Part shown: in pieces, positions 9,205-60,060 of the stretch
Layout of the letters: every line of letters starts with the position of its first letter
Numbering within the stretch: position 1 is the stretch's first letter
NCBI GenBank assembly: GCA_024734495.1
Contig: JALMQS010000075.1
Span: 6,308,832-6,372,831, forward strand
Source of the DNA: Forficula auricularia
Lineage: Eukaryota; Arthropoda; Insecta; Dermaptera; Forficulidae
DNA length: 64,000 bases
Reading direction: 5' to 3'
Notes under the pieces: generated by a model
The model's database searches: none
What the model saw: only the letters and a program-made list of their open reading frames with translations
Told to the model about the DNA's origin: nothing
Translations under genes and position numbers: made by a program

Positions 9205-9239
9205 GACTATAGTTTCGAAGGCTTGGCCTTCATCATCAG
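9205..9239 (-). ncRNA. Hammerhead ribozyme motif, intact core
   Basis: Read on the minus strand: CUGAUGA, U, helix II GAAGGC-CAA-GCCUUC, GAAA, CUAUAG, UC. Helix II is six perfect pairs with a 3-nt loop. Helix III is the self-complementary ACUAUAGU, too small to be stable in a monomer. The cleavage site would be after GUC (NUH satisfied). Helix I beside the core is weak (GA with UC). Confidence 0.75.
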
Positions 9240-9400
9240 TCTTTTTAATTAGGAATATTTTATCTATTATTTCTCATAGGGTCAATCACCAATTGATATT
9301 GAAAATTTGTTATATATTTGCTATCACAACAAATTTTCAATATCCAATTGGGGGTTGACCCCATGAGAAATAATAGATAGAATATTCCTATTTAAAAAAA

Positions 9401-9435
9401 CTGATGACGAAGGCAAAGCCTTCGAAACTATAGTC
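9401..9435 (+). ncRNA. Hammerhead ribozyme motif, intact core
   Basis: CTGATGA (9401-9407), C, helix II GAAGGC-AAA-GCCTTC, GAAA (9424-9427), CTATAGTC, with cleavage predicted after 9435. It is the mirror partner of 9205-9239. Only A/T pairs are available for a distal helix I (TATTT with AAATA). Confidence 0.75.
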
Positions 9436-9763
9436 TCAAACAAATAAAGTATTTCATTCATATTTATATTTTATATAATATATTATGTATGTATGTTGAT
9501 TTGCTTCAAGCAGAAGACAACTTCTTTGTTTCTCTTTATGATTTAGATTATTGTCATGCTATTACATTTTATTTACCTTCTCTGATGCAAAGTAGTTATT
9601 TAAGAAATAATATTTTATTGCAACAAAATTTTCTCTAGAGAAAGACGGACTGGTAGAAATTTTAATTGAATGTAATGGAAGGCAGCCCAGGGGTAGTGAG
9701 GAAAGAAAAATTAACACATATCAAATAAGGTTAATTTATTGGAATCCTTCCTCCCTTCCTTTC

Positions 9764-9798
9764 AAACCGACGTTTCGGAGGATTTTTGTCTTCTTCAA
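9764..9798 (-). ncRNA. Decayed hammerhead of the ACGU family
   Basis: On the minus strand it keeps GAAACGUC followed by GGUUUG, but the core reads UUGAAGA instead of CUGAAGA and helix II no longer pairs cleanly (AGAC...CCUCC). It is the relic of an element related to those at 13.7 and 60.0 kb. Confidence 0.55.
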
Positions 9799-9799
9799 T

Positions 9800-11700
9800 T
9801 TATAAAAATTCTGCTTCTCTTGGCAAAAATAAACTTTCAATTTATATTTTGATTGTTATAAGAGAGCGTGCTCTGCACACGCTTGTTTTTATTATTATTA
9901 TTATTAGTAGTAGTAGTATTTTGGCCATAGACGTGTTATTCTACGTTGCTTAACTTCCGTGATTTAAATTCTCATTAAATAAATAAAATATAATTAATCT
10001 TGACTGATATTTACTTGTTCCGAAAGAGCTCACATTTCGTATAAATAGATCTGATTAGTAATCAAATCTAAAAAGTTTAGTCACTCTTTTGGACGTTTGG
10101 CCATGACAGAGAAACACACTTTCAGTCCATGGCTCAGACACAGGCACCCACCTATACATTCTCTTTTCCAAAAGAAAAAAAATCCAAGCTAATTTCACTT
10201 TAATAATAGCAAAGTTCATTATATAATAATTTCAAAATTCATTCCATTCAAGCATAGAGACTTGGAAATTAAATCAATTTCAAGAATAATAGTAAGAACA
10301 TAAAGATGTAGAGTTCAATTTTATTTATTTATTTATTTATTTTTATTATTAATCTATGTTGTAAGTTCAATTAAATGCGAATTTTCTAAATTAGCCTAGT
10401 CATTCTTTTCGACATCTTCTTAAGTGACATGTTATTAAGCATGTGGAAAAAGAACCAACTAGCCTTGAGTTCACTTTTATCCTTACATATTGCTTTTATA
10501 TAAGAATTCTTAATTAAGTTTAGATAATAATTTTTGCATTGAATGGCATAGATTGGAATGAAATATTCTAAACAAAAAATACAATTTATTTATTGATTAA
10601 AACATTGTATCTTTTTTTACTTCATTATATTCTACTCAACTATTATTAATCAGGCGGTTTTCTCGAGAAAATTAAGATTAATGTTACGAGTCATTTATCT
10701 ATATCAAGTTATCACGTTAAAATGTCTACATAAATAAATAATGGTCAACCGTTCATAAAATAAAAATTCTAAAAAAATACAATATTTTTGGTGTATATTT
10801 ACGCGTTGTTTGGTTATAAAATATTCCCCCAACGTTTTGTCTTCATTCTAGAGTTTTAATGTTGATAAATTAATATTCCAGGTCAGGTTGATTTTTTTTC
10901 AGTTAAAATAATGCAACTTGTATTTAGAACAAAATATTTTTTATTTAAATAAAAATAAAATTTTGGAGTCGTTATTACGGGTAGTTTGATATGAGTATTA
11001 AGTTAATAGAAGCTTTTTAATTACAATATGTAAATGACTTGTGGCAACTCTTTTATTACAATTTAACATTTTTATGAAAAAAAAGAATAATAAATAAATA
11101 AATAAATAAAATAAAATTTTTATAAAATGTAAATTAAGTAAGTAGTCGCTTCAATCCGGAACTAAGTAGGCGTGCAAATGCATAAAGTTTGAAATTATTA
11201 TTTTTTTTTTACTTTCCACTCAAAAACTTAAAAACTTGTATTAATTTTAACATTTTAATTATTTATTTATAAGAATTAACAAAGAAAGAATGAATTTCAA
11301 AAGCGCCTGTATATCGGCAACCAGAAACACAAAGCTTTTTAATTTTTTGTTCCGTTAAAACGCTAGGATCGTTTCTATGGATTTCGATAACTCCATATAA
11401 GCATTTTCCATTTCAAAAAATATTCTCTGCAGCTTATTTGTGAAAGTATAGTATTTTTTTTTACTTTTAAGTATTTAGTTATTAGTATTTATCTGAATAT
11501 TTGAACAAAAATGGCTAAAAACTTGAAAATCAGTCGAAGCAAACATTTAGTACCAAGTAAGGCCAATTTGGCCAAAACTTAGCTATAGAATTTTCAAATG
11601 GCTAAAATTTAAATTATATTCCAATGCAATTTAACGTTTTTAAGATTCATTTTATCCACCACAGACTATAATTTAACTCGATTAATTCATTCAATTCGAA
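9800..11700. other. No recognisable gene
   Basis: AT-rich DNA with simple repeats: ATT/AGT triplets at about 9885-9920, TTTA at 10320-10343 and AAAT at 11089-11112. No ORF or splice-bounded segment is credible. Confidence 0.5.
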
Positions 11701-12330
11701 TTTTTACTTTACCATACAGGGTATGGTCAAGTCTTGTAATCGTGAATGAAAAAAGTGGTTTTTTTCGTTCTTTTTTTCGTAATATCTCAAAAACTGCTGA
11801 AACTATTTTGATTAAAAAAATTGAGCAAAACCATGGCATTTCGGCCTACAAAAAACTCTAATAAGTAAACACCAAAAAATTATGTTATTTGAGATAATAA
11901 TTGTTTTGACAAAATGTCTATTAGTTAGTCTGTCTAGTTGTCTGTTAGTCTGTGCGTTACCAAATTTTTGTGGACGAGCTAGCTCAAAAACTAGTGTGAA
12001 TATCGAAACCAAACTTCACACGTAGTTTTGGTCCATTGAGATTAAGAGCTGGTTAGATTTTCGTGCATATCGACAGACGGGGGTGGAGGGGGTTAAAAAT
12101 TAAAAATCTAGGCCATTTGAGCAAACTAAACCAAATTTTGTATACATAATCACTGGGACCCCAGAAGTCTAAAAATGCAAAAACTAACCGCCCAAAATGG
12201 GGAAGGGGATTTAAGGATCAAAAAATGAAAATATAGGCTCTTGTACCAAACTCAACCAAATTTTGTATACATAATCAGTGGGCCCCCAGGAGTGTAAAAA
12301 TGCAAAAACGAACCCCCCTCCCAAACATGA
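11701..12330. repeat. Dispersed repeat family X, copy 1
   Basis: It starts at ACCATACAGGGTATGGTCAA and runs to the ACAAAATTTGGTT/TATACATAATCAGTGGGCCC blocks. Bases 11701-12125 are the reverse complement of 52855-53475, while 12130-12330 resembles the arms of the palindrome at 34294-34905. The open frames here (11812-12012 and the edge of 12252-12452) belong to the repeat; the same weak reading recurs in the second copy. This looks like an old DNA transposon or its derivative, of unknown superfamily. Confidence 0.7.
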
Positions 12331-12424
12331 TTATAAATAATTTTATTAAATATTAAATATAAGTGAAAGGCCAGGTTGGATGGTAAAATCAAATGGATGG
12401 CCACATCAGAACACGCCAGCTTAT

Positions 12425-12598
12425 TTTTTGACTTTTCGGCCCTTCTAGCCATCAGCCAATTTACGATACTGATATTAAATTAAGACTTCTATGAAGGGAT
12501 CAGATTTTTAGCCGGTTGCCTCGAGTAGGATTTTAACCCGGGTCCACTTGATTAGCAGGCTGGTGCGCCAACCCCTCGGCTAACCCGACGCCCATTAA
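12425..12598 (-). mobile_element. tRNA-derived SINE, copy 1
   Basis: Read on the minus strand, it opens with a tRNA-like head: a box A-like TTAGCCGAGGGGTTGGCGC, the spacer CCAGCCTGCTAATCAAGTGG and a box B-like GGGTTAAAATCC (one or two changes from GGTTCGAATCC). An unrelated body follows, ending ...CTAGAAGGGCCGAAAAGTC. A second copy with a better box B lies at 39181-39353, with matching ends. Confidence 0.8.
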
Positions 12599-12599
12599 C

Positions 12600-13655
12600 C
12601 TCGACTTATACATGAACTCAAATTCAGTCCTAGATTGTTAATAATATTCTCTTTGTATTCAAGAACAGCCTATTTCAGGAGTGTTTGGATTTAAATTTTT
12701 GAGACCTAAAAAATATTTCAGTTACCATAAATTATATATTATACACTTGGAAAATCAAGAGACCTCTTTAAATTCAAGCTTATAAATACCTTCATCTCCG
12801 ACCCAACTCTTAAATTTTATCTCTTTTTAAAAAGTATTTGGATAACTCTTTGATCTTAGATATCATTATAAAACAAATTGCGAAAAATTCTTCTGTTTTT
12901 AAAAGAAATCAATAAACATTCCCGGCCCACAATTAACAAATATAATTATAGAATTCTCAGCAAACAAATATTTGATTAAAGAATTCTTTTTGGATCACAT
13001 TTATATAATTATGTAATATTTAGTACGATTATTTTATCATAATATTAGACAAATAGTACCTATATTTAAAATATACCTTCATCCTAAAAGTAGGTATATG
13101 AATAGTTAATTTCCAAAAACAATATATTCTCCGAAATTGTACGCATACTTGTACATTGTACAATAATTAGTCTATAATTTAATAAAAGGGTTAAATTTAA
13201 TTCCAAGTATAATAATTATTAATATTTCAATTAAATAATATATTCTGGTTGAATAGTTTGATTCGTGATAGATAAATTCACTTACAAAGCCTATTCAACC
13301 GGTTAATCGCAATTTGTGGTTTAAGTAGAAAAATTCTAGTTTTTATTTTATTTGTTTAGTTATTTATTTTAAATTAATACAAATAAATTGAACAAGTGTA
13401 ATGATTTTTCGTTCTTATAAGACAGAGGATTTAGTGACCGAAAAATCAAAAAGTAAACATTTCAAAGTTTGAACATTAATAAGTTAAAAACTGTCTTTTC
13501 TGCTTGGGTAAACTTCTATTTAAGTTTAAGACTAGTTTCAATGAAGTATTCTATTTTTTCCAAAGAGTAAATTCAATTCTGACTAAAATTCTATTAAATT
13601 TACATCTATAATATTTCAATAAAAATTTCATCTATATATTATTATCTAAACTTAA
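12600..13655. other. No recognisable gene
   Basis: AT-rich unique DNA. No gene, repeat family or structured element was recognised. Confidence 0.5.
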
Positions 13656-13660
13656 TTAAG

Positions 13661-13903
13661 AATTGAGTGGATATTGATGAGGCAGTTCAAAAAAAGAAGA
13701 TAATTTATACTATCTTTTTATTCATAAACCGACGTTTCGGAGGCTTTCCCTCCTTCTTCAGTGTTTTGAAAAGTCAGTGAAGGAAATGTCGCATTGGATT
13801 TCTTTCACTGACTTTTCAAAACCTGAAGAAGTGAGGTTTATGAATAAAAAGATAGTATAAATTATCTTCTTTTTTGGACTGCCTCATCAATATCCACTCA
13901 ATT
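13661..13903. mobile_element. Palindromic element, ACGU-hammerhead family
   Basis: The ends AATTGAGTGGATATTGATGA and its complement are mirrored, as are AGATAATTTATACTATC and the TTTTCAAAAC inner arms. The left arm keeps a hammerhead (13731-13761). The right arm has CCTGAAGAAG joined directly to GAGGTTTATG, having lost helix II, GAAA and the cleavage site. A related copy is at 15815-16023. Confidence 0.75.
13731..13761 (-). ncRNA. Hammerhead ribozyme motif, ACGU type
   Basis: Minus strand: CUGAAGA, A, GGAGG-GAAAG-CCUCC, GAAA, CGUC. Position 7 of the core is free, so CUGAAGA fits CUGANGA. Helix I can form between AAAC upstream and GUUU downstream of the cleavage site, with one mismatch at the junction. 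Helix III is ACGU with no loop, which only makes sense in a dimer. Confidence 0.65.
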
Positions 13904-14370
13904 TCAGTTATCAGTCCATTTCCAAAAATTTCTCCAATCTTATTAATTAAGAATTCTTATATATAACAGAGTTTCAAAACTTTTTTTAATTCAAGTATTA
14001 TATTTGTATTTTAAGTATTATATTTGTCACTTTTATTTGAGAACCTTTGTATTCTCAAATTCTAATTAAAAAATCATCATTTTTATTTTAAAATAATTAA
14101 TAACGTAGCTATTTCGAAGAAATAAAAACTTTTGAAAAATTATAATCCCCGAGCATACAAATAATAGGTAAATTTTGAAATACCTACGCTTTCTAAAATA
14201 CAATTTTTGATACTTTCTGAAATACAACGGGAAATGTTATAAACTAAAAAAATGCAAATATTTATATTAACAAAGAGAAACAAAGAGGTTGTCCTCTGCT
14301 TGATGCAAAAAAACATACACACATATATATCGAAATTATATATCTGTATTTATATTATTTATTTGTTTGA

Positions 14371-14405
14371 GACTATAGTTTCGAAGACTTGGCCCTCATC
14401 ATCAG
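14371..14405 (-). ncRNA. Hammerhead ribozyme motif, intact core
   Basis: Minus strand: CUGAUGA, U, GAGGGC-CAA-GUCUUC (six pairs, two of them G-U), GAAA, CUAUAG, UC. The wobble pairs show helix II tolerating change while still pairing. Confidence 0.7.
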
Positions 14406-14653
14406 TCTTTTTAATTATAAATATTATTTTCGTTGGATCAATATCCACACGATACTGATCCAATGAAAAATAATATTTATAATTAAAAAGACTATAGTTT
14501 TAATGGAAGTTATCTTCTGTTTCTCCTCAAGATGGGTTAGTCACCAGAAATATATATATCGAGATTAAAGATTCTCCAAAAATAAATTCGTTTTATTTTT
14601 TATATCTTAATGTGAAACCTACCAAGTATTTTTATCTAATAATATTAAAAAGA

Positions 14654-14688
14654 CTGATGATGAGGGCCAAATCTTCGAAACTATAGTC
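14654..14688 (+). ncRNA. Hammerhead ribozyme motif, nearly intact
   Basis: CTGATGA (14654-14660), helix II GAGGGC-CAA-ATCTTC with the innermost pair lost, GAAA (14677-14680), CTATAGTC. The core and NUH are complete. Confidence 0.65.
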
Positions 14689-14967
14689 TCAAACAAATAA
14701 ATAATATATATATACAGATATATAATTTCGACATATTTGTATGTATGTTTATTTGCATCAAGCAGAGGACAACCTCTTTTGTTTCTCTTTGTGAATCAAC
14801 AACTCTGCTACTCTCGGCAAAAGAAAAACTTTTTAATTATATTTATATTAAGCTCTTTAATTGTTTTCCTTATAAATTACATTACAAATTCTTCTTTCTA
14901 GTCTCATCAAAGCAATCAATAAAAATAATTCTCCTAGAATATTTTAATTAATCATTTTTTCTTTCAG

Positions 14968-15039: not shown

Positions 15040-15810
15040 AAATATCGTTTTCTTCGCGATTTTAATTTCTACGATATAATATCCTTATAATTTTAATTAA
15101 AATAATTGCAACGATAAATAAGTCCTTTGATTCCAATAAAAAAAAGATAAATTAAAATTCGTTTCGCTAAGGATAATTAAAAATATAATTTTTATATTGG
15201 GGTACTCAGTCGAGATGTGTAAATAAACTGGTGAATTTGTGCACGGTCATAAACACTGAAATTCATTTTATATTGTGGCTTCACACCATAACTCTTGAGG
15301 AAAACATAAAAAAAACTCTGACCATTACCCGAACGTTTAGATAAATTTCTAATGCGAGCTGCTTGACTCTCTACCAACCCCTCTACTCTATTATTAGGCA
15401 TATAATAAAAAGAAATATATTTTAATAGGCTAATAATTCTCGCTCCCACCTACGTTTAATAATATCTTAATTAAACTTTAATAACCAATAATAAAAAAAA
15501 ATCAGCCCTTAAATATAAGTAATCACTACATTGTACTATTTATATTATTTATTTGATGAAATATTTTTTTTTATTTATTTTTTTACTTTCACTAATAAGA
15601 ATGAAAATATTTTTCGACCAAAAATAATCGAATTCGACTTTTAACCTGATATAAGTTTTTAAGTTAACTGATTATTATTAATTTTTTAGTTGTATATCTA
15701 TGTTTCTATGAATAAAATTAGCTCTATCTAGATTACTACTTAACAAATAAAAACACCATGTAATTATTATTTATATAAGATTGGAGTAATTTTTGGATAC
15801 GGAGTGATAA
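15040..15810. other. No recognisable gene
   Basis: AT-rich. The 85-codon minus-strand frame at 15192-15449 is somewhat GC-richer than its surroundings but has no recognisable domain, start context or splice partner. Confidence 0.45.
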
Positions 15811-15814
15811 GTGA

Positions 15815-16023
15815 AATTGAGTGGATATTGATGAGTAAGTCCAAAAAAAGAAGATATTATAAATTATCTTCTTTTTTGGACTGCCTCATCAATATCAGTA
15901 AGTCACTGACTTTTCAAACCCATGAAGAAGGAGGGAATAGCCTCCCAAACGTCGGTTTATGAATAAAAAGATAGTATAAATTATCTTCTTTTTTTGAACT
16001 GCCTCATCAATATCCACTCAATT
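15815..16023. mobile_element. Rearranged palindromic element, ACGU-hammerhead family
   Basis: It has the same AATTGAGTGGATATTGATGA ends as 13661-13903. The left side is a shortened, locally inverted arm (AGAAGATATTATAAATTATC). The right side carries a mutated hammerhead at 15921-15953: CATGAAGA in place of CUGAAGA and CAAA in place of GAAA, with helix II (GGAGG/CCTCC) and GTCGGTTT kept. Confidence 0.7.
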
Positions 16024-16449
16024 ATTATTTATATTTAAGAAAATCAAACGTGGCTCAATTTACCATATACATGCTTCCCCGTTTATTTTATTTTCATTAC
16101 TACGCGACAAATAAGTATTAAATGAAATATTGTGGTTTCGCTAAAATTTGATGCTGTGATTTTTTAAAATCTAAACTTGAAATATCCATACTTAAAAACA
16201 ACACATTTTAACGTTCAAAACACTTTGAAACTTAAAAAAGAATAAACTTACTTCCCCATACTGAAATAGACCGCTCTCATTGCGTAATGTTATAGAAATT
16301 CACCTCATGTATTGGGACCTCCTTCTTACTTATTTAATTTATTATTATTCTTAATTTTATATAGTCAGAACTTTGAGTAGTAAATTTTTCTATGATATAG
16401 GTGGAGGTAATCAATAATTATACTTGAAAATTCAATTTGCAGTACACAT

Positions 16450-17364: not shown

Positions 17365-18125
17365 AAAATACAGGTATAAAAAAATAAATAAAAACTTCTC
17401 GTAGGAGATAAAGAAGGCAATGAAAAAGAGGAGAGTGTGAGTCATATCACGTTTCGTAGTTTATTTGCCAGCCATTAAAATGAAACTTGAGTATTTTTGA
17501 TGAGAAGCCCAAATTGTCTCGGTTGCCTAATATTCGCGGGGTTGGTTCGTAATTGAAAGTGAAACCAATTGAAAATGACTCTGATCATTCTCCCGATAAG
17601 CATATCGGTCAATCAAGCTAAAGGTGCTTTAATACAAAGTTGTTGCAAGCGATTGAGGTCAATTCAGAGACAATAAGGACTACACTAAGCACCTTGTAAA
17701 TGGATGCAAATAAAATTGCAAAAAGCGATAGTTAAAAGCATTTCCCAAATATGTTAAGCGATGATGATTCAAAATAGGGTCTTAATGGAAAGTGATTGCT
17801 TTCGATGAATTTGGGAAAATCCCCCTCGACCCCCCCCACATTCACCAATATTATAGATGCAACCGATTGATCTTTCATCATTAAATAATTCCTTTCCAAT
17901 GATTTTCGTTATATAAATTCTGAGCAGGCGTATTTTTTGGATATTCTAATAAACCAATCAGAATCAATTATTACTGAATTTGTTACTAAACCAAACCAGA
18001 ACATGATTCAAAAAATATCGATGCGTCACACTGGCGAGAAATTTATTATTATTATTATAAATTGACCTTACCCTTTAGAACATTAGATAATTATAAACAT
18101 ATTTATCATTTATCTATTAAGTATT
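17365..18125. other. No recognisable gene
   Basis: Moderately AT-rich and apparently unique. No credible ORF, exon or repeat was seen. Confidence 0.5.
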
Positions 18126-18127
18126 AA

Positions 18128-18280
18128 TTTGAAAGTTTATAATAGGAAAATAAGGACAAGTTTTTATGGGTGACATTTTTATTTATCAGCCAACGTTTCG
18201 TCGACTTTGCCGATTTTTTCAGGGCTTCAAATATGTTAGTCATGACACACACATTCGTCTAAATTTTCTTTTTATTCAAA
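18128..18280. mobile_element. Single-arm fragment of the 24-kb palindrome family
   Basis: It shares TTGAAAGTTTATAATAGGAA, AATAAGGACAAGTTTTTATG and the ribozyme region with 24190-24854. The minus-strand hammerhead (18192-18222) has CUGAAAA instead of CUGAAGA, a change at an invariant position, so it should be inactive. Helix II (UCGGC-AAA-GUCGA) is largely kept. Confidence 0.7.
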
Positions 18281-23164: not shown

Positions 23165-24185
23165 TTAGTAGCATGTCAAATAGACTCGCATATTAACATT
23201 ATATTTATATATTAATAAAAAAAAAAAAAAAATTAAACGGATGATATTAAACTATGAAATATAATATAAATTAAATAATTTAAATGAGTCGTCTAACGGG
23301 AAGCCCCTTAACCTATTTTCACTCGGATTATAAAAACAAATATAAACATTAAAGTTATTCATTATATGATATAATTATATCGTACCCAATTGGGAAATAT
23401 ATATTTACAATTATTAAACATTAAGTAAACTAGATTTTACTGAGGTAAATATCCTGAAGAAAAATCATATAAATAATTTTTTTTTTAATAAATCAACAAA
23501 TCGTTCACTCACGTCTGTCGACATTTTGAAAAAGTGACATTGAAAACCGCTTTCACAGTAAAAATGCTCACTAATAGACACTAATATTAGTCTAATAGGG
23601 TGGATGACACACACTCACGCCTGTCAATATATTTTTGTATGTTCAACTCAAATATGGATATTTATGACTATTAAAAAAATGGGCATGTTAACAAAAATTG
23701 GTATAAAATAAACGCGATGAATAAATAGATTGACCCCAAAAAAGATAGAAACATTAAATAAATTTTACGCGTTAATGTTTAATATTTATTTATTTTGTTA
23801 ATGGGTAATCTTACTGACCTATATATATTTAACGATTTTAAAATATGTAAAAGCAAATTTAGTTATTCATATAAATGTATGTCACAAATATTTATATTCA
23901 TTTATTTGCAAATATTTAATTATGTCATTAATTTAGATCGAAATGAATGTTGAATTGGTAATCATTTGAGGTGTTGCTGGTTATCATATTAAAAGTTTTT
24001 GGGGGTTTAGTGTACATAATTGTGATTTGTAAATAGTTAGGGAGCTACGCATGAAATTACCAGGATAGGAATTTTTAATGAAATATTGTCATTAGAAACA
24101 TAACGTTTTGATCTCTTATTCTGGATCAAGAACTGACTTCTATTTTACTTTAATCTTATTAATAATTAGTTCTTGAAATTAAAAA
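23165..24185. other. No recognisable gene
   Basis: Very AT-rich, with an A tract at 23216-23232. TCACTCACGTCTGTCGACAT and CACTCACGCCTGTCAATAT (about 23505 and 23612) form a short imperfect direct repeat. Confidence 0.45.
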
Positions 24186-24189
24186 TAGT

Positions 24190-24854
24190 ATGAAAGCTTA
24201 TAATAGGAAAATAAGGACAAGTTCTTAGGTCTGACTTTTTTATTTATATATATCAGCCAACGTTTCGTCGACTTTGCCGACTTCTTCAGGGCTTCAAATT
24301 CGTCTAAATTTTCTTTTCATCTTCGTTCCCATGAAAACCACCAGAAACACAAATTTCAAAAAATATTTGGCATATTCCATTAACAATTTGTTTTCTATTC
24401 TTTATATTAATAATTAATTACACTAGACAAAACAGAAATACATAGAATGAGGCAATACTATTTTTTAAAACAACAGAATAGAATCCTTTTTTTTATTGAT
24501 CTTTATATTTAAAAATCTCAAATTTTTTTTTTTTAATTTGAGACTTTTAATCAATAAAAAAGGATTCTGCTCTGTTGCTTTAAAACACAGTGTTGCCTCA
24601 TTCTATGTATTTCTGTTTTGTCTAGTGTAATTATTAATTTAAAGAATAGAAGAAAAAATTGTTTATGTGAATGTGCCAAATATTTTTGAAATTTGTGTTT
24701 CTGATGATCTTCAATGGTAACGAAAATAAAAAGAAAATTTAGACGAATGTGTGGCATGACTATTTGAAGCCCTGAAGAAGTCGGAAAAGTTGGCTGATAA
24801 ATTAAAAAGCCACACATAAAAACTTGTCCATATTTTCCTATTATAAACTTTCAA
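24190..24854. mobile_element. Long palindrome (about 665 bp), hammerhead-bearing
   Basis: The whole segment folds on itself around an A/T tract near 24520. Mirrored blocks include GAAAGCTTATAATAGGAAAA, AGCCAACG/GAAGCCCTGAAGAAG, GTCTAAATTTTCTTTT, GAAACACAAATTTCAAAAAT, ACTAGACAAAACAGAAATAC and GAATGAGGCAATACT. The left arm holds an intact hammerhead; the right arm lost GACGAAAC. Small open frames here (24551-24817) are by-products. A one-arm relative is at 18128-18280. Confidence 0.85.
24259..24289 (-). ncRNA. Hammerhead ribozyme motif with GUU cleavage site
   Basis: Minus strand: CUGAAGA, A, GUCGGC-AAA-GUCGAC (six pairs including one G-U), GAAA, CGUU. Helix I forms AGCC (24290-24293, minus) with GGCU just beyond GUU. 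NUH is satisfied as GUU. Helix III is the self-complementary ACGU. Confidence 0.7.
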
Positions 24855-24859
24855 ATTAA

Positions 24860-25495
24860 TACAAATTATAGACGGAAATGATAATAATAATTTAGTAATT
24901 TAGAGTGACTGGAACTCTCTTTAAGCAACTGACATATAATCTTTAGTCTTTTAAGACCCGCATCCACAGGCTCTGTTCCAATCCATGACATTTCTTTCTA
25001 TCATTCTCTTTCTTTTCAAGATGCAAGGCACTTTTTCGGTACATCTTCTTGCATCAATATCATTAAAAAAAAATTGTAAAAATAATGAACGTGAAAGAGG
25101 TGTTGGGTATGAAGTGTTGCCTCTTTTTGGAAGTGAAATAAATTTGCACAAGGCTTATAGAATTTAATCATCTTTTCAATTTATTATTTATAGAGCGATG
25201 ACGGAGATGTTCGATGATCAATCAATCCCATAAAAATCACGAAGCTACAAGCGAAAATCTCCCAAAAACAATATTCTGAAAAGCAATCTCTTTTTCTCTG
25301 TTCCTCCACGTCTCTTTTTCTCTTTGTCTTCCCGCCTTCTTGCAAATTACTTCCAATAAATGTCTGATTCAATATCTATCGATAACCGGAAATATTAATT
25401 AACCTTGAAAAAAGTCTACCTTTTTTTCCCCCACCTTTTGTTTGTACCAATTGGAATACACTTTACATACATTAAAAATTTCTCCTGATACCGAA
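24860..25495. other. No recognisable gene
   Basis: Overlapping small open frames on both strands (24951-25151, 24985-25167, 25184-25372) arise because this stretch is less AT-rich. None has a domain or a splice partner. Confidence 0.4.
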
Positions 25496-31596: not shown

Positions 31597-31840
31597 TTTG
31601 TTAAGTGAGAATGGTGTAGGTTCTTGGAGAAACATATTTTAATAAAGTAAAGACAATTTAAAATTTTTAAAAAAATTTAAAAATAATGTAATTCTAGGTA
31701 GGTTTCACGAAAATAAAAGATAAGATGCTTATTAGCATGACTCTATATAATTTTATTTATACTATATACAGTACTTATAAACATCTCGTCTTTTATTTTT
31801 GTGAAACCTACTTAGAATTCTATATTTTTAAATTTTATTG
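31597..31840. repeat. Foldback repeat, TAAAGTAAAG/GGTAGGTTTCAC family
   Basis: It opens with the inverted tail GTTAAGTGAGAATGGTGTAG, then AAAGTAAAGACAATTTAAAA and CTAGGTAGGTTTCACGAAAA, mirrored by TTTTGTGAAACCTACTTAG about 100 bp later. A close relative is nested at 32082-32300. Confidence 0.8.
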
Positions 31841-32081
31841 AAAAAAAAAAATTGTAAATTATAATTTTGAACGTTCTTGTAATATAATCTGTTACGTCAT
31901 AGTTTTTTACTCCCTTTCTGTCTGGATTTCGATACTAATGATAAAACAAGAACGAAATGATGTAGAAAGTTGCTTCTGGTGTCAAAAAGTTTGTATTTCT
32001 AAACCAAATGGGATTTGGGCTGTTCTAGCTTAAAAACTTCCGGTTTAAAAAGGCAAACAAAAAGAATCGATAATATTTTAT

Positions 32082-32300
32082 ATGAGATAAAAGTAAAGAA
32101 AATTTAAAAATTTTTTAAAAATATAGAATTCTAGATAGGTTTCACAAAAATAAAAGACAAGATGCTAATACTTTATATAAATAAAATTATATAGAGTCAA
32201 GCTAATAAGCATCTTATATTTTATTATTGTGAAACCTACCAAAATTCTATATTTTTTAAAAAATTTAAATTTTTTAAAATTTTCTTTACTTTTATCTCAT
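32082..32300. repeat. Nested foldback repeat
   Basis: ATGAGATAAAAGTAAAGAAA is mirrored by TTTCTTTACTTTTATCTCAT, with GATAGGTTTCACAAAAATAA mirrored by TTATTATTGTGAAACCTACC. It sits just inside the left arm of the 31845-33602 element. Confidence 0.8.
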
Positions 32301-32594: not shown

Positions 32595-33060
32595 CAGTTT
32601 TCTAAAGAGTAAATGTACAAAAAAGCTAAAAATTTCTATATTTTGCCCCCCCCCTTTCGCCTCCATACAGGCAATTTTGATAGTTGATTTTTACAGGAAT
32701 AGTTTCTTAAAGTAATAAAGAATAACTCTACAAAATTTGATCAAGATCGGAGAGAGTTTTAATTTTTGCTCCCACTCACATTTTGATAGTTGAGGGGAGG
32801 GGGGTCGGATTACAAAAAATCTTGAAATTATTTTTTAGATATTTGCAAAGAAATAATCCACAGTTTTCTAAAGAGTAAATGTACTAAAAAGCTAAAAATT
32901 TCTATAATTTGCCCCCCCCCCCTTCGCCCCCATACAGTCAATTTTGATAGTTGATTTTTACAGGAATAGTTTCTTAAAGTAATAAAGAATAACTCTACAA
33001 AATTTGATCAAGATAGGAGAGAGTTTTAATTTTTGCCCCCACTCACATTTTGGATAGTTG
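32595..33060. repeat. Tandem duplication, 266-bp period
   Basis: CAGTTTTCTAAAGAGTAAAT at 32595 recurs at 32861, followed in both units by a C run, CCATACAG, CAATTTTGATAGTTGATTTT and AAATTTGATCAAGAT. Only a few substitutions and changes in C-run length separate them. Confidence 0.9.
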
Positions 33061-34293: not shown

Positions 34294-34905
34294 GGGTGGA
34301 GCCTAAAGATCTCCCACATTTTGAAAAGGTATAAAAAATGAAAAAATTTAACTAGAAATAAACTGAATATATTTTTGAAAAGAACTTAAAATATTTTTTT
34401 ATATCAGACAAAAAAAAAAGGGGGGGGGGGCAAAAATGAAAATTCTAGCCTTTTCGACCAAACTCAACTAAATTTTGTATACATATTCTGTGGACCTCCA
34501 GAAGGCTAGAAATGCAAAAACTAACCACCCGAAATGGGGGAGGGTCAAATATGAAAATTCTAGCACTTTCTACCAAACTAAATCTAATTTTGTATACAGA
34601 GTTTTGTCGAAAGGGTTAGAATTTTCATTTTAACCCTCCCCATTTTTGGTGGTTAGTTTTTGCATTTCTATCCTTCTGGGGGTCCACAGAATATGTATAC
34701 AAAATTTGTTGAGTTTGGTCGAAAGGGCTAGAATTTTCATTTTTGACCCCTCCCCCAATCCTCTTTTTTTGTCTTATATTAAGTTTAAAACACATTAAAA
34801 AGAATTATTTTATTTTATTTTCAAAAAATATATTCAGTTTTTTTCTAGTTAAATTTTTTCATTTTTTTATACCTCTTCAAAATGTGGTAGATCTTTATGC
34901 CCCAC
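34294..34905. repeat. Long palindrome (about 610 bp)
   Basis: It is mirrored around about 34592. GGGTGGAGC...AAGATCTCCCACATTTTG at the left end is complemented at the right. Inner arms contain GACCAAACTCAACTAAATTT, TTTGTATACATATTCTGTGG and ATGCAAAAACTAACCACC blocks, shared with repeat family X at 12130-12330. The minor frame 34743-35048 starts inside it and is not a gene. Confidence 0.85.
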
Positions 34906-36220: not shown

Positions 36221-36235
36221 AATTGTAAATAGATT

Positions 36236-36612
36236 ATGAAAAATTTCAATTTGCTGATGCTAATAGATTCAAATTTTCTTAGAAAATCTTAAGATTATGT
36301 CATCTCTTAAATCCTGATGGAATGGATTATTTTTAATTATATGTCAGAAGGGTTGTTTTTCACCCCCTGGGAATCGAACCCGAGTGCCAGTAACAGCAAT
36401 CCGGGCTATCTGGCTCATCTGTGACTCTCTGATATATGACATATGATTGCTGTTACTGGCACTCGGGTTCGATTCCCAAGGAGGTAAAAAACAAACCTTC
36501 TGACATATAATTAGAAATAATCCATTCCATCAGGATTTAATAGATGACATCATCTTAAGATTTTCTAAGAAAATTTGAATCTATTACCATCGGCAAATTG
36601 AAATTTTTCATA
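36236..36612. mobile_element. Inverted dimer of a tRNA-derived SINE
   Basis: Outer arms (TATGAAAAATTTCAATTTGC, AGAAAATCTTAAGAT, CCTGATGGAATGGATTATTT) mirror each other. Each inner arm carries a tRNA-like head with box B (CGGGTTCGATTCCC) and CACTCGGGTTCG. The left (minus) half keeps more of box A (GATGAGCCAGATAGCCCGG); the right half starts later. A single plus-strand copy follows at 36792-36945. Confidence 0.8.
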
Positions 36613-36791
36613 TTCAATTAGGAAAAGACATTCCATTGTCCTTCGAATTTTGAATCTCTTCAAAATTCGAAACCCTAACGACCTTTATTTAAATTATATG
36701 GAATGGCTATATGTTTAAATTTAAAATCACTAGATCGCGAAATTTTACAAATTAAAATAACAATTTTTGAGTAAAATATTTAACGCGTTTA

Positions 36792-39353: not shown

Positions 39354-39499
39354 CAGAAAAAATTGGAAACTCAATTTGTCCCTTTCTCCATTGTTTATTT
39401 ATACTACAGGCAGGTTTTATATATAATATAAAGTCGATGTGGTCTTAATTGGCATTCATTTGTTAAGTGACTAGCTTAGTACATATAACAACAAAACGA

Positions 39500-39690
39500 A
39501 TTTACATATATCCAATGGAGTATTTGACCCCATTAGAAATAACACATAGAATATGATGAAGATGGTCAAACCTTCGAAACTATAGTCTCTAACAAATAAA
39601 TTATAAATCTATTTGTTATATATATGTATAGGCTTATTTGCAATAAACAGAGGGACAACATCATTGATTTTTCTTTATGGATATTTATTT
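39500..39690 (+). mobile_element. Decayed one-arm Penelope-like fragment
   Basis: TATCCAATGGAGTATTTGAC and CCCCATTAGAAATAACA match the inner part of the 9-kb element. A decayed hammerhead follows at about 39552-39588 (ATGATGA, helix II eroded, GAAA, CTATAGTC), then the outer arm (CTTATTTGCAATAAACAGAGG). Confidence 0.7.
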
Positions 39691-44514: not shown

Positions 44515-44801
44515 TAGTACAGTTAGGTCTCAAACCTAGGAAACTGATGAGCCCAGCGCCACCTATGTCTGATGGATCATTAATTCTATTAACATACCAC
44601 ATATATTTATTTTATCAAATTTTTCGTGGGGTGGAAAATAGACAAAATCTTTTTTAATTTGGGGTAGAGATATCTTTTTTTAAGTATTAATAAGGCTCAC
44701 AAAGAGAAACAAAGAGATTGTCTTCTGCTTGATGCAAATAAACATATACACATATATATCAAGATGATATATCTGTATATATATATTATTTATTTGTTTG
44801 A

Positions 44802-44836
44802 GACTATAGTTTCGAAGACTTGGTCTTCATCATCAG
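44802..44836 (-). ncRNA. Hammerhead ribozyme motif, intact core
   Basis: Minus strand: CUGAUGA, U, GAAGAC-CAA-GUCUUC, GAAA, CUAUAG, UC. It has the same architecture as at 9.2 kb, but the fifth pair of helix II is A-U instead of G-C, a compensatory change. Confidence 0.8.
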
Positions 44837-44921
44837 TCTTTCTTCAATTATAAATGTTTTTCATGGAGTCAATATCCATATGATATTGACTCCATGAAAA
44901 ACATTTATAATTGAAGAAAGA

Positions 44922-44956
44922 CTGATGATGAAGACCAAGTCTTCGAAACTATAGTC
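44922..44956 (+). ncRNA. Hammerhead ribozyme motif, intact core
   Basis: CTGATGA 44922-44928, GAAGAC-CAA-GTCTTC, GAAA 44945-44948, CTATAGTC; cleavage predicted after 44956. A distal A/T helix I (ATTTAT with ATAAAT) is possible beyond an internal loop. Confidence 0.8.
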
Positions 44957-45119
44957 TCAAACAAATAAATAATATATATATACAGATATATCATCTTGAT
45001 ATATATGTGTATATGTTTATTTGCATCAAGCAGAAGACAATCTCTTTGTTTCTCTTTGTGAATCAACAACTCTGCTACTCTCGGCAAAACAAAAACTTTT
45101 CAATTAATAAGGCTGTTTT

Positions 45120-46092: not shown

Positions 46093-46279
46093 TTTACATT
46101 GCCTTACTTCAAAAAAATAAATATTCAATTGGTCCAGCGGTTTAAAAATTTTAATTTTTTCTTTCTATAATTTTTATTGAATGTGTAGTAATGGAAATAG
46201 GTATTATATAAATGCCAGAGGACTAAGTTTGTAATTAATAGAGATATTGGTGTTGATGCAAGGTGAAACATCTTTAATA

Positions 46280-46415
46280 AAGATAAAAGTAAATAAATAT
46301 TATATGCAATATTCATTTACTATGAGTTAAGATTTCTAGGTCACTTGTTTCATAATAATTTTAATAATCATAGTAAATGAATATTGCATATAATATTTAT
46401 TTACTTTCACCTTTA
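46280..46415. mobile_element. Palindrome, same family as 63175-63444
   Basis: TAAATAAATATTATATGCAA and TTCATTTACTATG are mirrored. The preceding AATAGAGATATTGGTGTTG and GCAAGGTGAAACATCTTTAA blocks are shared with the element at 63.2 kb. The inner arm here is shorter and less matched. Confidence 0.8.
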
Positions 46416-54623: not shown

Positions 54624-54894
54624 ATTAAAGGAGATTTAAAAGACTGGTGGAGTAGACGAGATGCTTTGTTCCTTCACCAAAAATATGTTCATCAATCTTT
54701 GACGAAACAACTACATCCTTTGCACTTTGACACTATTCATCAGGAAATATCCGAAAAAATATCACACCTCAGACTAGATTTGGCTAAAAAGAAACAAAAT
54801 AAACTTAAAAAACTTACTTCACAATCAATTTTCAAGAAACAACATCAAATCAACTCACCAATTCACGAATTTCACTCCAGAATTGTCAACCTGA
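54624..54894 (+). pseudogene. Penelope-like reverse transcriptase, N-terminal remnant
   Basis: The open frame runs from just after a TGA at 54621: IKGDLKDWWSRRDALFLHQK, then YVHQSLTKQL, DTIHQEISEKISHL, LAKKKQNKLKKL, and FHSRIVNL at the end. A basic helical segment with KKxxNKLxKL followed by (F/H)xxRxxNL is the usual lead-in to the reverse-transcriptase domain of Penelope-like proteins, where the next residues are typically a short polar stretch and a conserved LLxKG block. That block, the RT core and the GIY-YIG nuclease are all missing. Identification rests on remembered family pattern, not on alignment. Confidence 0.55.
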
Positions 54895-54914
54895 TATAAT
54901 TTCAAGTACACAGT

Positions 54915-55745: not shown

Positions 55746-55747
55746 AG

Positions 55748-55850
55748 GGTCATCTTGATCTAAGATAGATAATTTTGATTATATGTCACGAGAGCAGTCG
55801 TCCCTTCAGGTATCGAATCCAAGTGCCAAAAAAGCCATCCGGGTCGGATG
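55748..55850 (-). mobile_element. Diverged tRNA-derived SINE (36-kb family)
   Basis: Minus strand: CCGACCCGGATGGC, then GGCACTTGGATTCGATACC (box B region), then ...GACATATAATCAAAAT. It matches 36792-36945. Part of its mirror (ATCTATCTCTACCCGATCC, TTTTGGCACTT) appears at 56640-56690, beyond the hAT insertion, so it was a SINE palindrome later split. Confidence 0.6.
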
Positions 55851-56054
55851 GAGATAGATGGTAGAAGAGTGAATACCTATATAGAGATGAATGCCTAACC
55901 CTAGTGGTCAGTGGTTCTTAAACTATGTTTCGCGACCCAAAATCATATAAAATTGAAAGTTTTTGCAGAGAGTAGCAGAATTTTTATATATTGAAGGAGA
56001 CAATAAAAAGAGTGTGCTTCTGCTGGAATTATAAATTTTATTTATTTATCACGA

Positions 56055-56089
56055 GACTATAGTTTCGAGGGCTTTGCCCTCTTCATCAG
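56055..56089 (-). ncRNA. Hammerhead ribozyme motif, intact core
   Basis: Minus strand: CUGAUGA, A, GAGGGC-AAA-GCCCUC (six Watson-Crick pairs), GAAA, CUAUAG, UC. Two helix II pairs differ from the 44.8-kb copy, both compensated. Confidence 0.8.
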
Positions 56090-56156
56090 TCTATTACAAT
56101 GATTCACAGGAATTAATTAATGAATAAATTAATTCCTGTGAATCCATTGTAATAGA

Positions 56157-56190
56157 CTGATGAAGAGGTCAAAGCCCTCGAAACTATAGT
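56157..56190 (+). ncRNA. Hammerhead motif, probably inactive
   Basis: CTGATGA, A, GAGGTC-AAA-GCCCTC (one mismatch), GAAA (56180-56183), CTATAGTG. The cleavage-site base is G, which breaks the NUH rule, and helix II has one lost pair. Its mirror partner is intact. Confidence 0.6.
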
Positions 56191-56699
56191 GTCGTAATAA
56201 ATAAATAAAATTTATAATTCCAGCAGAAGACACACTCTTTTATTGTCTCCTTCAAAATTATATATTCTTTGGGTCGCGCAGAGTCGTTAACCAAATATTT
56301 TACTACGTTTATTTTCAATAAATTTAAAAATATTGTATATTTTAATTAATTCAATACTACCGTATTAAAAGAAAAAATATTAAAAATAAATACTGATTTT
56401 TCATTAAATTTTCCTTGGATCGAAAAGTACCTACCTTAGTTATCTTAAATGTTAAAAAAAATTATATGTGAGTTAAAAAGGGTTATCATTGTAAAATTGA
56501 AGAACATTTTTTAAGTATGATCTATAAAAAGTTAATGAAAAAATGTTGTCTTATTTTGGGGTCGCGATATAAATATATTTCTCAAATTTAGGTCACTACT
56601 TAAAAAGATTAAGAACCACTACTATAGGTAATCACTTTTCCATCTATCTCTACCCGATCCAGATATCTTTTTTGGCACTTCTGGAGAGAATTAAAAAGC

Positions 56700-57085
56700 A
56701 AATGAAACATAGACTCCTTCTTTAGAAGTGATAGTCCTAAGACTAGTTTGACGTTGCGAATGCCATCCCAATTACCCCTTGATGATTTAAAATATTTATT
56801 TTATTTATTTTCATAACCTACTAAAAACCGTAGTATTAGGTTTCAATAATAATTGCACAATATTTTCTTTAAATTTACATATTGAACCAATTTGGACTCA
56901 ATCCACGAAATAAATTAATTCAATTAATTTAATATTGAAAATTTTGAAATTGGATACTCTGGTCTTTACTTCTCTTGATGATATGAATAAATATAAATTC
57001 AGATGATATTTTCTTAGCTCTGATAAAATATCTTCTTTAATTTCAATATTTCTTTAGACTATAATTTCTATTCATTTTTATGCAA
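56700..57085. other. No recognisable gene
   Basis: AT-rich DNA between the split SINE and the next GC-richer island. Confidence 0.5.
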
Positions 57086-57089
57086 ATTC

Positions 57090-57260
57090 AAAATGCAGCC
57101 CCTCGGTCGGTTATTTTATTTATTTCAAGTGAGTGTGGCGCCCGGCAGCCACGCCCTGACAACTGATTATCGTTAATCGTGTACTGATATTTAATTAACT
57201 CTGTCAATGGTGTCAGTTATCAGAGCCTGGAAGGTGGGACTCGGCTGGCGTTTACGACAG
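57090..57260. promoter_or_regulatory. GC-richer island, strong candidate regulatory element
   Basis: Unique block with closely packed site-like words: CAACTGATTATCGTTAATCG, GATATTTAATTAACTC, TGTCAATGGTGTCAGTTATC and GTGGCGCCCGGCAGCC. TGTCA and TTAATTAA-type sites are typical of TALE and homeodomain factors. No ORF or repeat match. The minus-strand frame 57220-57420 overlaps its edge. Confidence 0.4.
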
Positions 57261-57609
57261 GAAACGACATCGACACCTTGCTGATGTCACAGATTTTTTT
57301 TTCTTGTGTCATTTGCTCTCCTTTAGTATGCATTTCGAGAGACAGAAAGTCGAAACATCCTATAAAAAGATAACCGAGATTGTCCTCTATTCCATTGTAC
57401 CCATTTTCTATTGAAAACATTATGTCATAAACACAAGTTTAATTACAGGGGTAAAATTAGCTCTAAAATATAATCAACCTCAGAGAGGTTAAAATAAAAA
57501 ATAAAACACATCGAGAGACACAACCAGTCCCCAGGCAAATTAACTTCCAAATCACTCAAATTTGAGTAGTGAGTTTGGAAAAATCTTCACTCTTCCCCAC
57601 CAATTTTTA

Positions 57610-57722
57610 GTATACTTATTTTTACTTTCACATTTATATTCCATAGAATATAATGTGAAGTATTGCGATCGCCTGTCTGTGTCCTGACTCTTTGAGATCT
57701 TGCACCTTAGAGATAAAAAAAT
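57610..57722. repeat. Dispersed repeat family W, copy 2
   Basis: TTTTTACTTTCACATTTATA, ATATAATGTGAAGTATTGCG, CTGACTCTTTGAGATCTTG match 29223-29325 in the same orientation. Frame 57552-57833 (minus) crosses it. Confidence 0.7.
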
Positions 57723-57724
57723 TA

Positions 57725-58745
57725 ATTTCATTTTGTAATTTCTAGATGGAAGGAATCGATCGATGCCCTTAATATAATAGTTGGAAACCAGATTTAGGAC
57801 ATAAAACCGGTTATTGTGATCCCCAGGGGCCAAAAAGGGGCCAAAAATCCATTGGTCAGTGCGTGTGTACCCCCCCCCTCTGCAGTTGACATTTACATGA
57901 CAGATTTTTCGTTTTTTTTGTTTTGTTTTTTTTTATTTTCTCAAAAACGCCACTAAAGTTTTTTTTAAATTGATGTACTTATCAAGTCTCATGAGTTATT
58001 AGTCCTGTATAAATTTTAATCTGTTTGAAATAAAATAAGGGGGTGTAAATTAGGAGTGTCGCGTTGATTGCAAATAAGTGAGAATGTGAAATTCGTGTGG
58101 TGACCACACCAGTTGATTATTTTATGTTTTCCTCTTTAAAATGTTTCAATTTTTAACTACTCCCTTGCCATTCAGCTCTCGGTACGTTAAACACCTTGGC
58201 GTTGTTTGGAATACAACAACAACAATGTGGATTCTACTAATTAAGACCTAGGTAATACGACACTAATCCCAATCCGTCCTACCCCAACAACATTCTTAAC
58301 AAATTATGTCAGAGGGTCAACAGCATTATTGATACAACAAACATAACCACCAACAAACCGATTCATATACTTATTCCCCTCCATATACGGGTCACCGTAC
58401 ATTAAGGCCAACCCCGAAATTAAAGTGAAGGCCTCCGATATGAAACTACATGAGTTATTCATTTAATAGTTTAAGATTTAATTAAAAAGCAAAAATTAAT
58501 TAAAAAACACAAACAAAACTCAAATTCCCTTTATTCCTTGAAATGCTTTTAGAAAGGAAGATCTCTTTGTCACTTTAAATAACATTTCTTTTGAACTGAT
58601 TCTTTGGTTCTTCATGCTAAGAATAAGATTTTGTTCTACGAATATCTCTTCCAAAGAATTTCTTTACACCAGACAATCAAGTGTATAATGTTATTTTTCT
58701 TGTTTCGATTTTTTTTTTAGAAGTAGTAAAGTGACAATTTTTATT
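57725..58745. other. No recognisable gene
   Basis: A C-run at 57870-57879, T tracts, and a moderately GC-richer patch around 58150-58450. No ORF or repeat assigned. Confidence 0.45.
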
Positions 58746-58751
58746 TTATAG

Positions 58752-58850
58752 GCTGTCTCGGAACGGTGGAAATGAGGAGACAGCATGCGTTGTCTCTCGA
58801 TTCTCCTGCCACTGCAGTTGAAACACAATCCTGACTCCTGAGTCAACAAC
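58752..58850 (+). other. Exon-like segment, possibly untranslated
   Basis: A strong acceptor context (T tract, TTTTATAG) and donor (CAAC|GTGAGTAAC) bound 99 nt of balanced composition. A short reading ATGAGGAGACAGCATGCGTT... encodes about 20 residues to a stop; no frame is open throughout. It is the best splice-bounded segment in the right half, perhaps a 5' UTR or non-coding RNA exon. Confidence 0.3.
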
Positions 58851-59145
58851 GTGAGTAACACTTTCGATTATTTCAATCATTGGAATCAACAGATTCTTAT
58901 ATATATTCTCATTGTCCTTATATAGTCATAGTAAAACTGTTGATCAGATAGTTTGATATTGCACTTGTGTCTATCTAGTTTGAACTAATTTTTCTTAAAA
59001 TGACCGAATTCATGCAACTTCCACTAGAGATGGCGATTCTCTCCTGAAAAGATCGATTTTTAAATCGATTCGAATCGAAATCTGATGAATCGATTTACAA
59101 AAAAATCGGGGTCTAAAAGATCGGTTTCTCAGAAATCGATCTTTT

Positions 59146-59885
59146 TAACCGACTTCAAAAAAGGAGAAGGTTCTCTATTCGACGGAATTTTTTTTTTTTT
59201 TTTTTTTTTTTTTGTTCCTATGTTACCTCATATCTCCGCCAATTGTGAACCGATTTTGAAAAAAAAAATTTGCTTTGGATTCAGACCACCTTTCGATTGG
59301 TCCCATTTTTTTTTCATAGGTATTAGACCTTTTTTATTAGGTTTTTTTTAGACATAACTTCATTGTTTATGAACCGATTTCGATAGTTCTTTTTTTTATC
59401 CGATAGGGGGTGTCTTAGGGATGGTGTCATATTAATTTGGTCAAGTTCTGATGATATCATCACTATTAATAACATCACTAAAAAGAGAACAATAAAAATA
59501 ATTTTTAAGAAAAAAATAAAAACCGACTTCAAAAAATTAAATGCAACAAATAAAATACACTAAAAGGTAGACAATAATTATTATCTTATTTAGTTACAAC
59601 TAAACGACGAAATATTAACATGAAATTACTTTTGAAGTTGGTGCCAAACATATACCTTTTATGAATCGCACTCGACGGATCTTTTTAGTACGTTTGGTGG
59701 GTACTCTCGCTTATAGGTATAGTTTGTTTGGCACCCACTACAAAAAGTAATTTCATGTTAATATTTCGTCGTTTAGTTGTAACTAAATAAGATAATAATT
59801 ATTTTATACCTTTTAGTGTATTTTATTTGTTGCATTTAATTTTTTGAAGTCGGTTTTTATTTTCTTCTTAAAAATTATTTTTTTC
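59146..59885. mobile_element. ACCGACTTCAAAAA-type element with foldback end
   Basis: It opens TAACCGACTTCAAAAAAGGA then GAAGGTTCTCTATTCGACGG, a start seen widely in arthropod repeats, and ends in the mirror TTTTTTGAAGTCGGTTTTTAT. The right part (59483-59690 against 59730-59885) is a long inverted repeat including ACTAAACGACGAAATATTAA and GGTGCCAAAC. A poly-T tract is at 59190-59213. Frame 59085-59351 is mostly poly-F from that tract. Confidence 0.7.
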
Positions 59886-59939
59886 GATTTGTTTTTCGAG
59901 TTTGTATTACCGTATAAATATAAATCTATATTAAGTAGG

Positions 59940-60060
59940 TTTTAATGAAAGGCAGTCCATAAATTATTTAATTTTATTCAATTTCTGACGTTTCGGAGAC
60001 TTTTTTCTCTCCTTCTTCAGGGAATTGAATATTTATTGATGGGTAAATATAACTCGGTTC
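59940..60060 (-). mobile_element. Penelope-like fragment with single hammerhead
   Basis: A single-arm insertion within the hAT element, recognised by the ribozyme at 59987-60020 and a flank AAAGGCAGTCCATAAATTAT that resembles the flank of the 13-kb family (GGCAGTTC). No opposite arm and no clear target duplication. Confidence 0.6.
59976..60030 (-). ncRNA. Hammerhead ribozyme with long helix I
   Basis: Minus strand: UAUUCAAUU, CC, CUGAAGA, A, GGAGA-(GAAAAAAG)-UCUCC, GAAA, CGUC, AGA, AAUUGAAUA. Helix II is five perfect pairs and helix I nine perfect pairs beyond a small internal loop, so all three helices can be drawn (helix III is ACGU). Structurally the most complete hammerhead here. Confidence 0.75.

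Follow-up and report, generated by a model that had tools for sequence, protein, structure and literature searches.

Hammerhead motifs in Penelope-like insertions of Forficula auricularia and insertion arms that end at the predicted cleavage site

A 64,000-nucleotide stretch of the Forficula auricularia genome (contig JALMQS010000075.1 of assembly GCA_024734495.1, positions 6,308,832 to 6,372,831; hereafter the window) contains hammerhead ribozyme motifs that lie in the arms of two families of insertions, one of which is a family of Penelope-like elements (PLEs). The window has a GC content of 29%, and its longest stop-to-stop frame spans 126 codons. Both strands were scanned with the pattern CTGANGA, 0–2 nucleotides, a stem II of at least four pairs, GAAA, the 15.2–16.2 pair and UH, and 200 dinucleotide-preserving shuffles of the window served as background. 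The window contains 11 matches, whereas the shuffles average 0.22 and never exceed 2. In these motifs CUGANGA, GAAA and UH follow one another in the order of a type I hammerhead, with stem II present. In all 11, A9 and stem II are separated by one extra nucleotide, which is why a strict scan with stem II directly after A9 gave no match in the window; that spacing was rejected as the form of the motif.

The ten positions listed in a preliminary description of the window are all exact, each being the left end of a motif. The eleventh match, at 56157 on the plus strand, reads CTATAGTGTC, and its GUH cleavage triplet is therefore broken. About seven decayed versions had also been mentioned, and seven were seen by eye: 4956+, 9777−, 15920+, 18200−, 39575+ and the right arms of the 13.7- and 24.2-kb elements, where the hairpin of the motif is deleted. 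Counted as independent ribozymes, the ten intact cores do not stand. They are spread over seven insertions from two families, have the extra nucleotide beside the core and, in family A, a stem I of 2 bp. Family A holds seven of the listed motifs (9205, 9401, 14371, 14654, 44802, 44922 and 56055) and family B holds three (13731, 24259 and 59987). Four palindromic insertions of family A and two of family B have a motif or a remnant of it in each arm, on opposite strands, and because most motifs pair up in this way within one insertion, fewer than ten are independent. The insertions, with head-to-head arms formed by the pseudo-long terminal repeat (pLTR), and their motifs are as follows; scores refer to the geometry of the target-site duplication.

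9107–9543, family A insertion (A9), head-to-head pLTR arms, tail left to about 9076; duplication 9064–9075 / 9541–9552, 12 bp with 1 mismatch; score 9
9205–9239, minus strand, hammerhead in the left arm of the 9.1-kb insertion; stem II 6/6; predicted cut between 9205 and 9204
9401–9435, plus strand, hammerhead in the right arm of the 9.1-kb insertion; stem II 6/6
14266–14796, family A insertion (A14), tail right to about 14838; duplication 14258–14270 / 14839–14851, 13 bp exact; score 13 (0 of 400 random places reach 12)
14371–14405, minus strand, hammerhead in the left arm of the 14.3-kb insertion, from the motif scan
14654–14688, plus strand, hammerhead in the right arm of the 14.3-kb insertion; stem II 5/6
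44697–45061, family A insertion (A44), two 180-nt arms, 100% complementary, 5-nt gap, tail to about 45102; duplication 44686–44697 / 45103–45114, 12 bp exact; score 12
44802–44836, minus strand, hammerhead in the left arm of the 44.7-kb insertion, from the motif scan
44922–44956, plus strand, hammerhead in the right (tail) arm of the 44.7-kb insertion; predicted cut after 44956, between GTC and TCAAAC; reference arm for genome searches
55977–56268, family A-like palindrome (A56), no target-site duplication found; score 0
56055–56089, minus strand, hammerhead in the left arm of the 56-kb palindrome, from the motif scan
56157–56191, plus strand, hammerhead-like motif in the right arm of the 56-kb palindrome; triplet broken (GTG), stem II 5/6; absent from the preliminary list
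39495–39682, plus strand, single family A arm with a decayed hammerhead at 39553–39587, by similarity and by eye
63625–63786, short family A palindrome (A63) whose arms stop before the hammerhead, tail left; duplication 63570–63582 / 63782–63794, 13 bp exact; score 13
13661–13903, family B palindrome (B13a), tail right; duplication 13652–13664 / 13943–13955, 13 bp exact; score 13
13731–13761, minus strand, hammerhead in the left arm of the 13.7-kb insertion; right-arm copy without hairpin
15807–16032, family B palindrome (B15), decayed hammerhead at about 15920–15951 (plus strand); possible duplication 15763–15776 / 16021–16034, score only 8
18089–18276, minus strand, single family B arm with a decayed hammerhead at about 18192–18222
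24139–24904, family B palindrome (B24), no target-site duplication found; right-arm motif has lost its hairpin; score 0
24259–24289, minus strand, hammerhead with a GUU triplet and a 4-bp stem I (AGCC/GGCT), from the motif scan and fold
59987–60020, minus strand, hammerhead of a family B arm (similarity 59818–60042) adjoining an unrelated palindrome

The duplication geometry was compared with that of 400 random places. In A14, A44, A63 and B13a, a direct repeat of 12–13 bp touches one end of the palindrome and recurs about 40 nucleotides beyond the other end, and a repeat and a tail are arranged in this way also at p63a, a palindrome without a hammerhead. The score of these five was reached by none of the random places. 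That of A9 was reached by 2% of them and that of B15 and a further palindrome, p46 (score 8), by 23; A56 and B24 lack a recognizable duplication. The extra stretch past the palindrome forms a tail that only one arm has. Inverted arms, duplications of 12–13 bp and a one-sided tail are the anatomy of a PLE. The preliminary description mentioned neither this anatomy nor the fact that dead copies preserve the point at which the copied RNA stopped. Penelope families of the rotifer Adineta vaga likewise have inverted pLTRs, palindromes at the inverted junction and a tail on one arm, and their description gives an optional 31-bp tail and duplications of 8–10 bp (PMC3846280). These families have far fewer copies than family A, and the word hammerhead is absent from the paper (PMC3846280).

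The F. auricularia genome (1.06 Gb, 845 contigs) was searched for further copies. The arm at 44.9 kb gave 47 matches, with 40 of 576 candidates scored, and a 30-base word from the family A tail has 7,891 exact copies (reversed control 0). Six longer family A loci have pieces of an open reading frame (ORF) on the upstream side. At one of them, L032, a natural frame of 686 residues matches RVT_1 (1.6e-15) and GIY-YIG (6.5e-6) and has its stop codon 217 nucleotides upstream of the predicted cut; a frame of L033 matches GIY-YIG (7.6e-7). The layout of family A is one ORF with reverse transcriptase (RT) and GIY-YIG domains, followed by the pLTR with the hammerhead and then by the tail. Because a single frame with both domains precedes the pLTR, family A is, judged by its sequence, a Penelope-like element. 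Family B shares its motif and anatomy; the identification by ORF covers family A. A search with the family A protein found 729 proteins at E ≤ 0.001, with a top identity of 59%; among the best 120 of these, the homologues named by organism come from insects, together with one labelled as a bacterial metagenome-assembled genome. The earlier assignment of the motifs to minimal type I hammerheads of the Penelope kind is thus supported, for family A by its own reading frame.

Metazoan non-LTR retrozymes also contain type I hammerheads in AT-rich mobile repeats. They are tandem non-coding monomers with circular RNA, whereas the elements of the window have inverted arms linked to a coding PLE (PMC7229834). 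A retrozyme reading was rejected because the arms are inverted, an ORF is linked to them and the tandem repeats listed for the window include no hammerhead array.

Stem II pairing was judged by inspecting the sequences by eye; in the MAFFT alignment the 60.0-kb row was out of register. All six pairs are formed at 44.8 and 44.9 kb (GAAGAC/GTCTTC), at 9.2 and 9.4 kb (GAAGGC/GCCTTC), at 56055 (GAGGGC/GCCCTC), at 14371 (GAGGGC/GTCTTC, including two G-U pairs) and at 24259 (GTCGGC/GTCGAC, including one G-U pair), and all five at 13731 (GGAGG/CCTCC) and 59987 (GGAGA/TCTCC). One pair is broken in each of 14654, 56157, 39553 and 18192. Stem II had previously been described as changing in compensated pairs, and its changes are compensated between families A and B. 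Stem I has 2 bp in family A and 4 bp at 24259, and is broken beside the core at 13731 and 59987. Stem III is palindromic (ACUAUAGU in family A, ACGU in family B), and help from a dimer or from an element protein is therefore likely to be needed for cutting. Insertions after A9 are tolerated in some natural hammerheads.

Pairwise differences among 20 aligned arms (15 loci, 5 of the arms from the window) are low in the core (0.032), GAAA (0.0), CTATAG (0.032) and loop II (0.033), and high in the upstream flank (0.116) and stem II (0.139–0.171). It had been proposed that the RNAs were under selection for self-cleavage while the families were active. The conservation of the core, GAAA and CTATAG relative to the upstream flank and the compensated stem II agree with this proposal. 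The TC before the cut (0.097) does not, and low values are also found at +61 to +100 (0.056) and in the tail, where the value of 0.063 is biased because the copies were chosen by their tail word.

Arm coordinates are counted from +1, the first base after the predicted cut. In 30 copies selected by the hammerhead and 40 selected by the tail, sense arms extend to about +144 to +156 and inverted arms mostly to +98 to +110, with L001, L013 and L051 as exceptions. Many insertions consist of two head-to-head pLTR arms of unequal length with the tail on one arm only, and the upstream ends of the two arms often differ. The arms are frequently joined at internal palindromes, near −88 and in an AT stretch near +10 to +40; both clusters were treated as palindrome joints and left out of the counts of RNA ends. 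Among the 30 hammerhead-selected copies, 7 of 21 inverted and 12 of 30 sense arms end within −117 to −135, near AGTT(G/C)C. The arms of six insertions (L009, L019, L024, L029, L052 and L076) start at or beside AGTT(G/C)CTAGC at about −126, which is perhaps the transcription start of the pLTR promoter; AGTT(G/C)C resembles an initiator element (Inr). An apparent cluster of ends at −112 was set aside as partly an alignment effect between subfamilies, since such arms reach AGTTCC, or nearly so, when compared with other copies; the alignment of the L070 sense arm nevertheless stops at −112.

Arm ends at the predicted cut were examined in insertions sampled by their tail. Eighty of 100 listed tail-word places were read and L061 was dropped as an exact duplicate of L060, which leaves 79; the duplicate check covered that pair. 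The sense arm begins exactly at TCAAAC (+1) in five of the 79 (L045, L064, L066, L074 and L086), and the flanks of these five ends are unlike one another. In L064 the preceding base is a C, which we attribute to chance. Inverted arms that end at the cut are found in L066, L086 and L112, and three extra bases lie between the arms of L066. In L045 the sense-arm start at the cut occurs twice, in tandem. Within a single insertion, L045 and L086 each repeat the bases that directly follow the cut, in tandem or in part, as if the cut end had been copied twice. For the first 39 insertions, 4 of 35 sense ends within −150 to +100 fall at 0 or −1, against a uniform expectation of 0.28 (Poisson 2e-4, an optimistic value because arm ends are not uniform). 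Among the remaining 20 places, C4:8515256 has the word 98 bases upstream with a T before it, which may be an end or a mutation.

The same position was counted throughout the genome with a word of 17 bases from +1, the base before it being scored as C or non-C. A C precedes the word at 13,920 places (reversed control 1) and another base at 1,087 (reversed control 14). The departure from consensus is thus 1,087 of 15,007, or 7.2%, compared with 2.6% one base further upstream, where the consensus T is replaced in 360 of the 13,920 (reversed control 1). The difference has a Fisher value of 4e-77, which ignores relatedness among arms. From the difference in counts we estimate that several hundred arms end at the scissile bond. 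Arms that start exactly at the predicted cut base suggest that the motif cut element RNA in living cells.

We consider it likely, taken as a whole, that the motifs are PLE hammerheads in an element copied from two starts, that the template was mostly uncut, and that a minority of arms derive from RNA that was cut in vivo and could still be copied. We lean, with somewhat less assurance, towards reading the several hundred cDNA arms that end at the scissile bond as a record of cleavage in vivo, with two RNA forms, one starting at about −126 and one trimmed by the ribozyme, both of them copied. Copying of the element RNA would be primed by nicked target strands and would begin at two internal sites; the resulting cDNAs would be joined at the points where they had stopped, often at an internal palindrome. 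As 38 of the 79 tail-sampled sense arms (16 of 39 and 22 of 40) run past the cut, uncut RNA would be the commoner template, often starting near AGTT(G/C)C some 126 nucleotides upstream. In vivo cutting by the ribozyme is suggested because a minority of arms end exactly at +1, and the cut RNA would have remained copyable. Going by the literature, cutting probably requires two motifs together or an element protein.

Several results weigh against cleavage in vivo. Besides the many sense arms that pass through the cut, none of the 21 inverted arms ends there among the 30 copies chosen to extend to −57, and no arm ending at the cut was seen in the window's own insertions, as far as they were inspected. 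The genome count has one neighbouring base as its usable control; a 16-mer control was set aside for its background (1,485 against 772 reversed). The extra nucleotide after A9 in every motif and the 2-bp stem I of family A are unfavourable, and the pairing in the minimum-energy fold of family A extends across the core. The covariance-model check proposed earlier did not favour the motifs: an Rfam search of the window at E up to 1 found no hammerhead family. Its 22 matches were all to microRNA families, rejected as long palindromes that fit hairpin models. A genome search with RF00163 matched none of the 73 of 118,820 candidates scored; because the control sequence matched in no genome either, this is not evidence of absence. 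Rfam models may miss minimal PLE hammerhead forms.

A closely comparable element is PAc, a Poseidon element of Anolis carolinensis, which like family A has an ORF with RT and GIY-YIG domains and a hammerhead in the pLTR. Its tail is defined by two internal RT start sites, both target strands are extended, and the two arm limits of family A match these start sites (PMC11167929). The PAc ribozyme needed the PAc protein, and the PAc ORF starts at stem II (PMC11167929); read by eye, the short family A frame from that ATG runs into a stop in stem III. No RNA reads end at the cut in PAc, unlike some insertions of family A, and this too counts against cleavage (PMC11167929).

The best-surviving alternative is that the reverse transcriptase halted at the folded ribozyme, or at some other pause, and so produced the ends at the cut without RNA cleavage, the motifs still being PLE hammerheads. 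It remains a live rival because arm ends also repeat at GCATCAAGC near +68, where no ribozyme is known, in 4 of the 79 insertions (L043, L090, L101 and L107), and ribozyme mutants of PAc had no effect on insertion in vitro (PMC11167929). The ends nevertheless sit at the exact predicted bond, and a stop at the fold would be expected 1–2 nucleotides further 3' (edge of stem I) or 12 nucleotides further 5' (edge of stem II). We regard this explanation as unlikely. Slightly less probable still is that most of the excess before +1 comes from arms that continue upstream and have a mutated cleavage C (to T, for instance), together with a few chance ends. A T was found in 43 of the first 100 listed cases and the neighbouring base is mutated at 2.6%, as such an account would have it, but the full distribution (A41 G16 T43) matches the base composition of the window and flanks (chi-square p 0.98) without transition bias, and the five ends read directly have unlike flanks. 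Chance or neutral hairpins without ribozyme function are very improbable: the window has few independent elements, with an extra nucleotide and a weak stem I, but its 11 matches stand against 0.22 per shuffle, two unlike families have the same core with a compensated stem II, and the core varies less than the upstream flank. That the palindromes are DNA transposons with terminal inverted repeats (miniature inverted-repeat transposable elements) that acquired a hammerhead-like hairpin, as their long inverted repeats and small size might suggest, is scarcely credible given the one-sided tail, the unequal arms within one insertion, the 12–13 bp duplications and the linked RT-GIY-YIG ORF, and was already disfavoured for family A.

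Hammerheads in PLEs were already known. Cervera and de la Pena (2014) and Lunse, Weinberg and Breaker (2017) reportedly deal with them. In a review, they are of the minimal type I form in the pLTR, with little or no helix III and probable action as dimers, and their in vivo activity and role are called a mystery (PMC7761336). The motifs of the window have the same minimal type I form in the pLTR; family A may be set apart by a stem III that is palindromic (ACUAUAGU) and by the nucleotide added after A9. What is new here is the ending of insertion arms at the predicted hammerhead bond, for which no report was found in a literature search that did not reach the primary PLE-hammerhead and Terminon papers.

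The window is very rich in other inverted repeats (78 pairs in all). The palindromes at 63214–63442 (p63a) and 46278–46415 (p46) are related to each other and lack a hammerhead, with scores of 13 and 8; because p63a has a 13-bp duplication in the tail geometry, the two may represent a third, ribozyme-less PLE-like family. A palindrome at 36228–36619 has 144-nt arms (92%) and, by eye only, a tRNA-derived look (GGTTCGATTCCC). Long palindromes at 34296–34905, 31644–32292 and 59467–59909 have arms of up to 167 nucleotides at 92%, without hammerhead or duplication. A direct repeat of 167 nucleotides (32619–32785 / 32886–33052; 90% identity, starts 267 nucleotides apart) lies outside the PLE families. 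Among 130 ORFs of the window, Pfam gave a single weak match, to Jiraiya (0.00061). A phage search with the window DNA and a search of viral contigs with one exact word gave no match.

If element RNA was cut in this way, trimming would strip the leader and could split tandem read-through transcripts into units, which is not an established role of PLE hammerheads. Should the ends at the bond be products of cleavage, a large PLE family in any genome could be used to ask whether the ribozyme worked, and in which subfamilies. Here counting can settle that question, since the genome has 7,891 exact tail copies and some 15,000 arms that reach the cut.

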